A stretch of 28,109 nt of DNA. It comes from Prasinococcaceae sp. CCMP 1430. Lineage: Eukaryota > Prasinodermophyta > Palmophyllophyceae > Prasinococcales > Prasinococcaceae. The notes below the pieces were generated by a model that saw nothing but the letters and a program-made list of their open reading frames with translations, had not been told where the DNA came from and ran no database searches. How positions within the stretch are numbered: position 1 is the first letter of the stretch; each line of letters opens with the position of its first letter. Below, in pieces: positions 20,881-27,970 of the stretch. The stretch covers positions 1 through 28,109 of the forward strand of contig RQSC01000003.1 in NCBI GenBank assembly GCA_013416795.1. Direction: 5' to 3'. The translations under genes and the position numbers were made by a program.

Positions 20881-21207
20881 TCGTCTGCGGCGGCGCGCGC
20901 GCGCGTAAATGTTTCACGAGGGCGCGCTGCGACGCGACAGCCGGTGACATGGGCCGGCCGCGCGCGCGCTGCCGCCGGCCCGTGGTTGCAGCCGCGCCGC
21001 CATTTCGTGCCACGCGAAGCAGCCCGGCTTGGTCGGTCGGTCGGTCGATCGGCGGAGAGTACATAGAGGTTTTGGTGAATACCTCTGTCCATTAAAAAAA
21101 GTAACTCTTTCGTTTTGATATACGGATAGGGTCTTACCCCAATGGTGCATAAATTTTTGTGTGATAGGTCACTTCTAATCTGTGTAGCTATGGAGGAGTT
21201 TTTGGAC
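20881..21207. other. Transition zone into the cytosine-poor block
   Basis: Composition changes abruptly here. Until about 21055 the DNA is GC-rich and ends with a GGTC tetranucleotide run (21029-21050). A small hairpin, AGAGGT and ACCTCT around TTTGGTGAAT, lies at 21065-21086. After it the sequence turns A/T-rich. No coding sequence is seen. Confidence 0.5.
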
Positions 21208-22598
21208 GGAGATTGTATGGTAAAATAGGAGGGAGATAGTGATATGGAGATATAATATGTTTGTGGTGGAGTGAGAAGGGAGATGATGTAGTTGTTGGAG
21301 TTAGAGTGGAAGATGGAATGATGTTTGTGTAGGTGTGGATGTGGTGTGTGGGTTTGTGTAAGTATTGGTGAGTTAGAAGAAAGAGAGATAGGTGGAGAGG
21401 GTGTGAGGGTAGTGGTAGGGAGGTGGGGTTAAAGGGGAGGTGGGGATGTCAGGACAGTATAGTAGAGGTGGATGAAGGGGGTGAGGGGAGTGAAGGGGAG
21501 GTGGGGATAAGAGGGAGGTGGGGATGTATGGAGATTGTGGTAGATGTTGATGATTGGGATGTGGATGAAGGAGGTTGTTAGAGTGGGTGGGTGATGTTAA
21601 GTTGGAATGATGTTTGTGTAGGTGTGGATGAGGTGTGTGGGGTTGTGTAAGTATGGTAGAGGTTGATGATGGGGATGTGGATGAAGGAGGTTGTTAGAGT
21701 GGGTGGGTTAGATAAAGTGGGATTGATGATTGTGTAAGTGTGGATGAGGTGTGTGAGATTGTGAAAGTATGGGTGTGTTAGAAGAAAAGAGGTTTGGGGT
21801 AGGGTGTGAGGGTTGTGTAAGGGAGGTGGGGATATGGGGTTGAAGAGGAGGTGGGGATGTATGGAGAATGTGGTAGAGGTTGATGATGGGGATGTGGGTG
21901 AAATGGGGATGTGGATGAAGGAGGTTGTTGTGTAAGTATGCGTGTGTTAGAAGAAGAAAGGTTTGGGGGGTAGGGGATGAGGGTAGTTAAGGTGAGGTGG
22001 GGTAGGTTAAAATGGAGATGTGAATGTATGGAGAATGTGGTAAAGGTTGATAATGGGGATGTGGATGGGGATGTAAGGAGAGTAGGGTAGAGGTGGATAA
22101 AGGGGATGAAGGTAGTGAATGGGAGGTGGGGTTAAAGGGGGAGTGGGGATGTATGGAAAAGAGGTTGGTGGGTAGGATGTGAGGGTAGTGATGGGGGAGG
22201 TGGGGATGTAAGGAGAGTATGGTAGTGGTTTTGGTGAATTTTATTGTAATATGTGGAAAATGGTGGGAAATGGGTGGAAATTAATGAAAATAATTGAAAA
22301 TTGAGGAAATGTTTGGATGTGTTTTGGGTAATATTGTTGGAATATTAGTATTATTGAATTTTGATGTAATATTTGTGTATTTTGATTAATATGTATGTTA
22401 AAATGTATGTACTGTATATTGTAAAGTTGGTGTAATTTAAAAAGTAGTTTTGATTAAAATATTAGTGAATGTATTTTGATATTGAAATAAAAAATAGGAT
22501 ATTTTGGAATATTATTTGAAATTTTGTGTTTATTGTGTTAGTTAAAAAAATTTGGATTATATTGTTTAGGGTTAGGGTTTGTATTGTATATTAAAATG
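21208..22598 (+). repeat. Nearly cytosine-free degenerate repeat block
   Basis: In 1,391 bases the + strand contains only four cytosines (21450, 21455, 21941, 22412). Up to about 22225 it is G-rich and built of degenerate recurring phrases such as GTGGGGATGTATGGAGA, GGTTGATGATGGGGATGTGG, GATGAAGGAGGTTGTTAGAG and GTGTGGATGAGGTGTGTG. From about 22240 it is A/T-rich but still lacks C. Stops are frequent in all frames and no gene is visible. Many GGGG runs give G-quadruplex and R-loop potential. It ends about 15 bp before a tRNA gene. It looks like a satellite or subtelomere-type repeat, but I know no named family with this composition. Confidence 0.85.
22564..22580 (+). repeat. Telomere-like TTTAGGG/TTAGGG motif
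   Basis: GTTTAGGGTTAGGGTTT contains one TTTAGGG and one TTAGGG unit followed by a partial third. It lies at the right end of the cytosine-free tail, 33 bp from the tRNA gene. It is too short to be a telomere and may be a healed-end or subtelomeric relic. Confidence 0.4.
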
Positions 22599-22603
22599 CA
22601 TGC

Positions 22604-22609
22604 AAAAAA
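22604..22609 (-). terminator. Pol III T6 terminator of tRNA-Glu
   Basis: On the minus strand TTTTTT follows the discriminator base after only three nucleotides (CTC). This is the standard RNA polymerase III stop and supports the gene being transcribed. Confidence 0.8.
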
Positions 22610-22623
22610 GAGTTACCGCGCCG

Positions 22624-22634
22624 GGACTCGAACC
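22624..22634 (-). promoter_or_regulatory. Pol III B box
   Basis: GGTTCGAGTCC in the T-arm matches the B-box consensus GGTTCGANTCC exactly. Confidence 0.85.
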
Positions 22635-22666
22635 CGGGTTTGGAGAGTGAGAGTCTCCTGTGATGA

Positions 22667-22678
22667 CCACTTGAGCTT
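22667..22678 (-). promoter_or_regulatory. A-box-like element across the tRNA intron 3' boundary
   Basis: AAGCTCAAGTGG matches the A-box consensus TRGYNNARNNGG at 11 of 12 positions. Ten of its bases belong to the inserted segment and the final GG to the exon. The insertion splits the natural D-arm A box, so this copy would restore the promoter at normal spacing to the B box. Confidence 0.5.
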
Positions 22679-22714
22679 CTGAATCAAGGGATGCAGATAC
22701 TACACTACGCAGTA

Positions 22715-23265
22715 CGCGTTCTTTTTTTTGAACGCTGTTGATGTGACCGCTAACAGGCCAGTATACATACCATACAGACAATGCAGAGAGACGTTTGCGT
22801 TCATTTTGATATGCACATGCTGTAGTCGCCGCCGTTCCAGTCCCCCATGTGATATCCACCCGGACGCAGGTGCAAAGGAAACACTCTCTCGATCGATCAA
22901 ACGAACGAAGCCCGAAGTTACATTCGATATTGGTATCATCGCGAACATCAAAATTCACAGCACTTCGCACGAGCCTACGGCCCGGTTTCGCGGCGGCGGG
23001 CGCCCCGGGCGGTGGGGCGCGCAGGTGCCGCGCGGGCCGTTTTGCGGTATGGGGCACGCGCAGCCTTTGCAATCCGCGAAATTTACTCGCGACAGACACA
23101 CAGGCCCACCCCGCGCCGGCTATTCGGCCAACAGCCGGCGCGGCGGCCGGCAGAGCCTCACGTCGCTCGCAGGCCGCGCGCGGCGCCACTCGGCGGCGCG
23201 TACGCTGGCCTCCCTGGCCTCCCGCCACCGCCGCCGCCGCCGCCACCGTCGCCGCCTCCACCACG
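22715..23265. other. Region upstream of the sugar-nucleotide transporter
   Basis: This 551-bp region separates the minus-strand tRNA gene from a plus-strand transporter gene and should contain the transporter promoter and 5' UTR. A T8 run at 22731-22738 lies near the left end. GC content rises sharply after about 22980. The frame upstream of the transporter ATG stays open but lacks protein-like character. Confidence 0.4.
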
Positions 23266-24870: not shown

Positions 24871-27309
24871 TCAATCCAAATCGTCCGCGGTGCCCTTCGT
24901 CGTCGGAGGAGCCTCCCCCTCGGTCTCCATGGGGGCCTCGCCGTCGGCGGCCGCGGCGGCGGGCTCCTCGGCCGCCTTGGGGGCCTCGACCTTGGGCTTG
25001 GGCTTGTCCATGATGGGCCCGCACACGCGCCTGAGCGTCTCCTCCTTCTTGGAGATCTCGTGCGAGAACAACACCGGGACGGCCGTCTTTGCCATTCCCG
25101 CCTGCTGCGCGGTCTTGTCCTCCAGCCACGCCTTGGCTGCCGCGCACTCCTTCACCATCGTGTCCTTCTCCTCCTGCTCCAAGTGGGCGTACCTCGCCTC
25201 GCCTCCGACGGCCACGCCCTCGAAGAGCGCGACGGCCGCCACCAGGCCGGCCGCCGCCTTGGGGCGCCTCTCCGCCTCGTCGTAGCGCTCCACCACCGGG
25301 TCGGTCACCGCCCTCAGCTCGTCGAGCTTGGCCACGTACACCGCCTTGGTCTCGTCCTCGCCCTCGTCGTACAGCCAGTCCTCCAGGTCGTCGAGCTTCT
25401 TGAGGAAGTCGGGCTTGCCGGCCTCCTCCATGTACTCCGAGTACTTGCCGCCGCCCAGCGCGGTGCGCATGCTGTACACGTACTCCTCGAGCGCGTTCTT
25501 GCGCTCGGCGGTCTCCTCCATGAGCGTGTCCTGGTCCTTCATGCGCTGCTCCGCGGCGACCCACTCCGCCACGGTCGCCTCGGCGTTGCCGAACACGCGC
25601 GCCGTCGACACGGGCACCTCGGTGCGCTTGATGCGCTTCTTGGTGACGAACTCCGGCGCGGCGGCGGCGGCGGCGTCCTCCATGGGCGCGTCCCCCCCCT
25701 CCTTCTTCTCGGCGGCCGTCGCGGGCGGGTCGACCTTGACCTGGTACTCCTCCTCCTCCACCATCTGCGCGCCCTCCACGGTGACCACGCCGTGCAGGTT
25801 GAGCTTGACCTTGACCTTGATCTTGGGCTTGGCGCCGGCGGCCAGCGCCGTGGTGGGCTTGGGGATGGGGCCCACGGAGAACGTGGCGAGCTCGCGCGCG
25901 GCGTCGCCGATGGGCGCGGCCTCGGTGTAGCGCGCGTCGAGCGCGAAGGTCTCGTCGCGGAAGAAGGTGAGCATCTTGGTGGAGGGCGTGGGGTTGTACG
26001 CCGAGAAGACCTCCGCGCCGGCGGCGGTGCCCGCGGCGCCGTCCTTGGAGCCCTCGGTCTCCACGGTGGTGTCCTCGCCGCCGGCGGCGGGCGCCCACGA
26101 GAGCGACACGGGGAAGGGGAAGACGTCCTGCACGTCGAAGTCGCGCACCTTGAAGACGGGCGACAGCATGGCGCACTGCAGCGCGCAGCCGCGCGCCACG
26201 CACTCCGAGGCGTTGAGCGTGCGCGAGATCTCGCGCTTGAAGACGTCCTGCAGCGTGCCGCAGATGGCCGGCACGCGCGAGCCCGAGCCGACCACCTCGA
26301 GCGAGGCGATCTTGTCGACGGCCACGCCCGCGTCGGCGAGCGCCTTCTCGCACGGCGCGCGCACGCGGGCGAGCGTCTCCGCGCAGATCTCCTCGAACTC
26401 CTCGCGCGTGATGTGCGCCCTGACGTCGATGTCGTTCGCCAGGCACTCCACGTTCATGGTCGCCTCCGGGTTGGCGCTCAGGATCTTCTTCGTCTTCTCC
26501 ACCTCCTTGCCCAGGCGCAGCATCGCCTTGTTGTTGCCCAGCACGTCGCCGAGCCCGGGCTTCTCGGCGGCGAACTTCTTGGCGAAGTGCGTGGCGATCG
26601 CGCGGTCGAAGTCGCGGCCGCCGAGGTTGGCGTCCCACGCGTGCGACAGCACCTTGAGCTGGCCCTTGCGGAACGCCACCACGCACACCTGCATGGAGCT
26701 GTGGCCCACGTCGACGAACGCCACGTTCGTGTCCTCCTTCTCGGGCAGGTCGGTCTTGAAGATGCCGTACGCAAGCGCGGTGGCGGTGGTCTCGTGCATC
26801 AGGCGCAGGCAGTTGAAGCCCGCGATCCTCGACGCGTCGAGCACCGCGCGGCGCTGCGCGTCGGTGAAGTACACGGGCACGCCCAGCACGACGTCGGTCA
26901 CCTTGGAGCCCTGGTCCTTCTCGGCGATGCTCTTGATGTCGCCCATGACGATGGCGAGCAGCTGCTCGGGCGTGAGCTTGGTCGCCTTGCCGAGGTACTT
27001 CACCTCGACCTCCACGCCGCCGTCGGCGCGCTCGCTGATGGGGTACATCGCGCGGGCCGCCTCGGCCTGCACGATCGGGTCGGAGAACTTGCGCCCGATC
27101 AGGCGCTTCAGCTCCTTCACCGAGTTCTTCACGTTCATGTTGACCTGCGCCTGGCCCGCGCAGCCCACGAAGCGGCGCGTGGGCGTGAAGCCCGCGACGG
27201 CGGGCGTCTCGCGCGCCGACTCGGAGTTGAGGATCATGTCGATGCCGCGCTTGCGCGCGAGCGCCACCAGCGAGGTGGCGTTGCCCAGGTCGATGCCGCA
27301 GACCGACAT
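24871..27309 (-). CDS. Hsp110/SSE-family chaperone
   Basis: Hsp110 proteins are Hsp70 relatives that act as nucleotide-exchange factors for cytosolic Hsp70 and hold unfolded proteins. One exon encodes 812 residues from ATG 27309. The ATPase domain (about 1-385) begins MSVCGIDLGNATSLVALARK, with VLGVPVYFTDAQRRAVLDA (141-159), LMHETTATALAYGIFKTDLP (170-189), VAFVDVGHSSMQVCVVAF (196-213, the Hsp110 form of phosphate motif 2) and VVGSGSRVPAI (339-349). A beta-sandwich domain follows (about 390-590), interrupted by an acidic Ala-rich insert, then a helical domain with EEYVYSMRTALGG and LDDLEDWLYDEGEDETKAVY, hallmarks of this family. The C-terminus ends DDLD without a cytosolic EEVD. The frame is open further upstream, but only this ATG matches the family's start. 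An HSE lies about 410 bp upstream. One ambiguous base at 27435 is in the leader, outside the CDS. Confidence 0.93.
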   Translation of the reverse strand: MSVCGIDLGNATSLVALARKRGIDMILNSESARETPAVAGFTPTRRFVGCAGQAQVNMNVKNSVKELKRLIGRKFSDPIVQAEAARAMYPISERADGGVEVEVKYLGKATKLTPEQLLAIVMGDIKSIAEKDQGSKVTDVVLGVPVYFTDAQRRAVLDASRIAGFNCLRLMHETTATALAYGIFKTDLPEKEDTNVAFVDVGHSSMQVCVVAFRKGQLKVLSHAWDANLGGRDFDRAIATHFAKKFAAEKPGLGDVLGNNKAMLRLGKEVEKTKKILSANPEATMNVECLANDIDVRAHITREEFEEICAETLARVRAPCEKALADAGVAVDKIASLEVVGSGSRVPAICGTLQDVFKREISRTLNASECVARGCALQCAMLSPVFKVRDFDVQDVFPFPVSLSWAPAAGGEDTTVETEGSKDGAAGTAAGAEVFSAYNPTPSTKMLTFFRDETFALDARYTEAAPIGDAARELATFSVGPIPKPTTALAAGAKPKIKVKVKLNLHGVVTVEGAQMVEEEEYQVKVDPPATAAEKKEGGDAPMEDAAAAAAPEFVTKKRIKRTEVPVSTARVFGNAEATVAEWVAAEQRMKDQDTLMEETAERKNALEEYVYSMRTALGGGKYSEYMEEAGKPDFLKKLDDLEDWLYDEGEDETKAVYVAKLDELRAVTDPVVERYDEAERRPKAAAGLVAAVALFEGVAVGGEARYAHLEQEEKDTMVKECAAAKAWLEDKTAQQAGMAKTAVPVLFSHEISKKEETLRRVCGPIMDKPKPKVEAPKAAEEPAAAAADGEAPMETEGEAPPTTKGTADDLD

Positions 27310-27590
27310 GGCCGCCGGCGGGGGGTCGCTGCGCAAACCCGTAGCTCGTACCGCCGTACCAGTGGTCTGGTTCCATGGTCTGCTCGCCCAGAAGCGTGCG
27401 GTTGACGCGCGTACCAGCCCTAAAGTTGCCATTCNCGCGCAGCCGCCGCGCGCGCGCGGCGGCGGCTGCGGGCGCCCGGTACGCCTGCCCCCTCGTTTGC
27501 CCCCGCCGCAGACCCGCCCGGCAGCCCAACCAACCAAAAAGCAACCGGGGCTTTTACTGTACCATCGCGCCCTGCATTCGGGGGTTTTGA

Positions 27591-27598
27591 TTCGAGAA
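27591..27598 (-). promoter_or_regulatory. Two-unit heat shock element half
   Basis: TTCGAGAA fits TTCnnGAA, the minimal inverted pair of heat shock element pentamers. It lies about 280 bp upstream of the Hsp110 start codon. Confidence 0.35.
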
Positions 27599-27718
27599 GC
27601 GCCCCACCGACCGCGCAGCCGCTTGCGGCGGAGACGCCATCCCGGATCAAATTCTTCGGTATTGCGCTCAATCGGCGAAGGCGCGGCGGCCGACGGAGGA
27701 GGCGTCGGCACGCGCGGC

Positions 27719-27731
27719 TTCCAGAAGCTTC
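27719..27731 (-). promoter_or_regulatory. Three-unit heat shock element
   Basis: TTCCAGAAGCTTC is an exact TTCnnGAAnnTTC, three alternating nGAAn pentamers, the canonical HSF trimer site. It is about 410 bp upstream of Hsp110 and in the shared region before the gene at the right edge. Stress induction of Hsp110 is a reasonable inference. Confidence 0.55.
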
Positions 27732-27738
27732 GTCGTCG

Positions 27739-27763
27739 CTCGTTCGTTCGTTCGTTCGTTCGT
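27739..27763 (+). repeat. TTCG tetranucleotide repeat
   Basis: About five TTCG units follow directly after the heat shock element. It is a simple slippage repeat. Confidence 0.8.
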
Positions 27764-27970
27764 CGTCGGCACGCATTGTGCTTTACGCACGCATTCATCG
27801 ATCAAGCAATCGATGCGCGGTGGTGCGAGTTTCGGTTGGAAACGCGATCTGATAAGGGTTGGGTGTTGCGCATCCATGGGGAGGGTTTGGTGCTCTTTTT
27901 TTTTGGCGGGAAACGGCGTGCGTCTGGGGGCGCGCGCGCGCACGCCCATGACACACACCACCACAACGAC

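Follow-up and report, generated by a model that had tools for sequence, protein, structure and literature searches.

A kilobase-scale block of DNA almost without cytosine on one strand, next to a tRNA gene in Prasinococcaceae sp. CCMP 1430

Strand-asymmetric minisatellites, such as the human hypervariable ones, are built of imperfect G-rich tandem repeats, so that one of their strands is G-rich and C-poor. Immunoglobulin switch regions and other GC-skewed R-loop regions carry a G-rich strand with repeats on the kilobase scale, and they contain C throughout, in the target motifs of a deaminase. The tRNA genes of yeast are replication pause sites, where head-on forks stall on the 3' side of the Pol III gene; we know of no compositional block of the present kind reported at them. 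Finally, C is lost through RIP and through the decay of methylated DNA, both of which affect the two strands alike.

The locus described here resembles each of these systems in part. It lies in a window of 28,109 bases, the whole stretch of DNA that was analysed, which forms the beginning of scaffold C64 (295,816 bases) in an assembly of 24.5 Mb and 145 contigs. The TTTAGGG arrays and the green-type plastid genes of this assembly point to a small green alga as the likely source. Unlike the minisatellites, the anomalous block of the locus is practically without C both in its repeats and in flanks that are mostly non-repetitive and differ in G content. The switch regions have no counterpart to its AT-rich tail. 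It shares the loss of C with RIP and methylation decay, but its other strand keeps 566 C. A search of a single open-access library turned up no description of a C-free block like it.

The block and its surroundings

By direct count, the plus strand of the block (21208-22598, 1,391 bases) contains 384 A, 4 C, 566 G and 437 T. The four C sit at 21450, 21455, 21941 and 22412, and leave C-free runs of 242, 485, 470 and 186 bases. Elsewhere in the window no C-free run exceeds 36 bases. The window has 67% GC, and C makes up about 34% of it once the block is excluded. The first-pass annotation had reported four C in 1,391 bases, with runs of 485 and 470, in GC-rich surroundings, and these figures are exact. 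Its claim of strand asymmetry is likewise borne out by the count of 4 C against 566 G (40.7% of the block) on the plus strand.

G does stay high over the first kilobase, as had been noticed: it makes up 47.5% of the first 1,020 bases (21208-22227) and 21.8% of the last 371. The head of the block is 73% purine. Plain C-to-T conversion, which the same annotation considered insufficient, was rejected as an origin, because ordinary local DNA converted in this way cannot give so purine-rich a composition.

The features of the locus are as follows.

~21080..21200, plus strand: dispersed-repeat fragment, MITE-like, 84-92% identical to its copies
21208..22598, plus strand: C-free block, 4 C in 1,391 bases; minus strand correspondingly G-free
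21208..21310, plus strand: left edge of the block, C-free, ~100 bp, outside the repeats found by the tandem-repeat finder
21310..22220, plus strand: G-rich imperfect tandem repeats, ~0.9 kb, periods of ~78, 116, 167 and 47 bp
22228..22598, plus strand: C-free tail rich in AT (A 34%, T 44%, G 22%, a single C), for the most part non-repetitive
22564..22581, plus strand: degenerate telomere-like motif GTTTAGGGTTAGGGTTTG; TTTAGGG is the unit of the telomere arrays in this genome
22605-22610, minus strand: Pol III terminator, a T run 3' of tRNA-Leu(CAA)
22612..22714, minus strand: tRNA gene, best read as tRNA-Leu(CAA) by ARAGORN with introns allowed; long variable arm, 6-nt intron

The block appears to be intergenic. 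Among the nearby genes are those of a TPR protein and a GOST-family membrane protein; another, at 24871-27801 on the minus strand, encodes a protein of the Hsp70 family. Protein coding by the block itself was rejected, with stops in all six frames and no convincing product. On its left, the dispersed repeat has further copies on five other contigs (C84, C105, C79 twice, C2 and C101). Homology to the family is gradually lost where the 3' part of the fragment enters the block from the left.

Chance was modelled by a first-order Markov chain trained on the flanks, for both strands of the whole genome. Under this model, which underestimates short C-free runs in a genome where simple repeats are frequent, 0.47 C-free runs of at least 35 bases are expected genome-wide, and 1e-45 of at least 242. 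The composition of the block is real, very unusual in this assembly and far beyond chance.

Repeats, rarity and chromosome position

Tandem repeats span about two-thirds of the block. TRF reports periods of 78, 116, 167 and 47 across 21390-22108, and the units are imperfect and lie head to tail, as in a minisatellite. It is possible that the block is an ordinary strand-asymmetric minisatellite, in which short C-free seeds were recently expanded by slippage and unequal exchange, and that the tail is another such C-free island that lies beside it by chance. Short C-free tracts resembling minisatellites occur elsewhere in the genome, for instance a 93-bp GGGATGTGGGATGT array on C86. Complex C-free islands of 36-60 bp and matching composition (A 25, G 38, T 37) are also scattered in it.

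Comparison of the repeat copies with one another speaks against this. Self-BLAST of the block gave few copies, and seven pairs with 605 aligned sites were compared. They show 80 mismatches (~13%), namely 32 A/G, 24 G/T, 19 A/T, 3 C/G and 2 A/C; since the pairs overlap, these counts are not all independent events, and their direction is clear. The five mismatches that contain C all derive from the three C residues at positions 21450, 21455 and 21941, and T/C accounts for none of the 80. If ordinary mutation had followed duplication, T/C differences would be expected in number, like A/G, so simple amplification is insufficient. Homogenisation of a C-free unit does not, on this comparison, explain copies that have diverged and yet remain three-letter.

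The anomaly also extends past the repeat array, as the ~100-bp left edge and the 371-bp tail share a single C. Because repeats, edge and tail are all C-free despite their differing composition, a single repeat unit cannot explain the block. Of the strand-biased repeat origin that the first-pass annotation had put forward, one part stands: the repeats account for part of the block, but its edge and its mostly non-repetitive tail are equally C-free. Minisatellite expansion alone does not account for the origin of the one-strand bias.

Other C-depleted blocks, for which a genome search had been suggested, were sought by four word samplings of the assembly within C-free 35-mers (ATGAT, GGATG, AATGT and TTTGGA; about 100 of 104 matches were listed for one of them). 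Among the matches listed, many fall in the block and in a copy of it on scaffold C11, and the others are isolated or in simple repeats. Shorter islands thus exist, but the four samplings of the 24.5-Mb assembly, which could overlook a block of several hundred bases with a very different composition, revealed, besides the C11 copy, no further complex C-free block as large as this one. The longest C-free tract among the complex ones measured elsewhere is 116 bp, and some of the short tracts sampled are known only over the matched 35 bases. Among the matches listed, C-free 35-mers genome-wide look dominated by homopolymers and dinucleotide runs, and only such runs approach the length of the block among the other C-free sequence found. 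A long G-free run on C62 (~329605-329852) proved to be a poly-C homopolymer of ~250 bases. One exact match of 33 bases links the repeat region (21407-21439) to C73:431875-431907 (minus strand).

Three further observations were made among the short tracts. Many of the complex AT-rich C-free islands of 34-59 bp in GC-rich DNA (eight loci and others) carry AGGGTT, which is the plant telo-box on the opposite strand, and they are possibly promoter elements. A motif close to TCCCGTGGGTA, or its complement, recurs at seven loci beside tRNA genes and C-free islands, and looks like the end of a short dispersed repeat. An identical C-free 35-mer is present at C1:37740 and C76:605941, perhaps in another duplicated stretch of the assembly.

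The low GC of the block (35-48%) within a region of 67% GC would suit a centromere, a replication origin or another chromosome landmark made of AT-rich strand-asymmetric DNA. This is highly improbable. One such block in 24.5 Mb was found by the four samplings, whereas a landmark would be expected to recur on each chromosome, although others could be unassembled. The centromeric or origin role proposed by the first-pass annotation is unsupported for the same reason: a centromere is expected once per chromosome and, unassembled parts aside, only a single locus and its C11 copy were found. Nor is a telomere-proximal position supported. The search for TTTAGGG arrays showed none on C64, where there is only the degenerate GTTTAGGGTTAGGGTTTG at 22564-22581, and the end of the scaffold, 21 kb away, may or may not be a chromosome end. 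G-quadruplex potential, which the annotation expected to be favoured, is not above that of the composition: G4-capable runs cover 202 bases in the block and 228 +/- 75 in shuffled sequence. A viral origin was rejected on the absence of an exact 21-mer of the block from viral contigs, which is a weak test.

Soundness of the assembly

Window positions 21497-23200 are identical (100% over 1.7 kb) to C11:138925-140628, where the identity ends at a gap. On its left, the C11 copy is flanked by a minus-strand reading frame for Sortilin/Vps10, present in single copy. Its left junction falls inside the repeats and differs from that on C64. Because the identity stops at a gap and the differing left junction lies within repeats, the C11 copy is probably an assembly duplicate; a recent genuine duplication is possible as an alternative.

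An artefact of assembly or library, with wrong sequence or wrong junctions, is an unlikely explanation of the block. The assembly is visibly faulty in places, as the identical 1.7 kb at the C11 gap, joined 5' of the Sortilin/Vps10 frame, illustrates. Arrays of TTTAGGG lie well within scaffolds (C43:417093-417265, C52:428598 and 734120, C75:1107978 and C76:618515), and represent either interstitial telomeres or scaffold misjoins. A 476-kb contig, C136, holds two versions of chlI, atpB and psbA between 218143 and 466433, with one set AT-richer; these different green plastid gene sets suggest either two joined green plastid genomes or a mixed culture.

Against an artefact, the C-free run reaches the same tRNA gene in both C64 and C11, and the left flank of the block is a typical dispersed nuclear repeat. 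A bisulfite-like conversion would not end sharply at both edges. We know of no artefact whose product would be C-free DNA that has diverged repeats and four real C and is flanked by normal sequence.

The tRNA terminator and a proposed loss of C from one strand

The right edge of the block, at 22598, lies six bases from the T run (22605-22610) that follows the minus-strand tRNA gene. This gene had an alternative reading as tRNA-Glu(CTC) with a D-loop insert, which was dropped in favour of tRNA-Leu(CAA) with its long variable arm. It may be diverged, because its Rfam tRNA score of 25.8 bits falls below the gathering score of 29 bits.

The 3' flanks of seven nuclear tRNA genes were read (on C64, C11:237510, C43, C105, C75, C82 and C78). 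In two of the seven a C-free strand begins at the terminator: the C64 block, and a tract of 116 bp at C105:20392-20507 that word sampling also found, independently of the tRNA search. The other five flanks are not C-free, so a tRNA gene is not sufficient for such a flank. No other complex C-free tract measured in nuclear contigs is as long as these two, and their polarity is the same, the sense strand of the tRNA being G-free in both. With two cases, a link between tRNA terminators and C-free tracts is suggestive.

This shared polarity, together with a leader poor in G that precedes the Sortilin reading frame on C11, could also point to a selected non-coding RNA or transcription unit, whose unstructured transcript, G-free from the minus strand or C-free from the plus strand, would owe its composition to selection. 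Such an explanation is very unlikely. The block matches no Rfam RNA family at E values up to 5, neither strand has a convincing long open frame, and it is hard to see why 1.39 kb would have to be wholly free of G.

The tentatively preferred explanation is that strand-specific mutation at the 3' end of the tRNA gene removed C from one strand of non-coding nuclear DNA, within which a G-rich C-free minisatellite expanded. Four observations argue for a strand-biased mutation: the sharp edge at the tRNA terminator; the position of the two longest complex tracts, both abutting a terminator with the sense strand G-free; the absence of C across repeats, edge and tail of unlike composition; and the lack of T/C among the 80 mismatches between copies.

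We infer each step of this process, as follows. The plus strand downstream of the terminator would repeatedly be left single-stranded, most plausibly through the stalling of head-on forks at the Pol III complex, which would uncover the lagging-strand template. On the strand so exposed, loss of C would then outpace its gain, through spontaneous deamination to U that is read as T and fixed. G-rich C-free units would be amplified by slippage or recombination at the stalled forks. Later T-to-C changes would be erased by the same loss of C, and diverged copies would stay C-free.

The T:C ratio of 437:4 would require a roughly 100-fold bias of C loss over C gain. Deamination in single-stranded DNA exceeds that in double-stranded DNA by a factor of the order of 100. 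The depleted plus strand is the template strand of the tRNA gene, and also the lagging-strand template for a fork that meets the gene head-on. Simple read-through R-loops are disfavoured, since they would expose the sense strand of the tRNA, which keeps its C.

Fork pausing at tRNA genes, stronger when the encounter is head-on, and damage from R-loops are established in yeast (PMC5413955). Deamination of C occurs mainly on single-stranded DNA, and that by APOBEC targets the lagging-strand template (PMC10030826). For bacteria, more C deamination is reported on the leading strand (PMC10030826), which leaves the assignment to the lagging-strand template insecure. Confidence in this mutational explanation, which takes C-to-T change from the assembled sequence rather than from ancestral or allelic sequence and assumes the direction of forks at this locus, is low to moderate.

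Two observations bear against deamination as the sole process. The purine-rich head cannot result from C to T alone, and an expansion of purine-rich repeats is also needed. In addition, the left repeat fragment lost C to A and G as well as to T: compared with its family, in an alignment that is partly poor, the lost C became T in five cases, A in three and G in three.

The block itself is probably without function. It is doubtful that a locus-specific process on one strand, anchored at tRNA terminators, nearly eliminates one base over more than 1 kb and keeps diverged copies three-letter, which would make the block a record of persistently single-stranded nuclear DNA. As no more than a minisatellite, the block would be a curiosity, and a caution for read mapping and bisulfite analysis. 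If strand-specific loss of C is genuine and still under way, the block would be a natural recorder of chronic single-strand exposure, and what transcription-replication conflict at tRNA genes costs in mutations would be readable from sequence alone.
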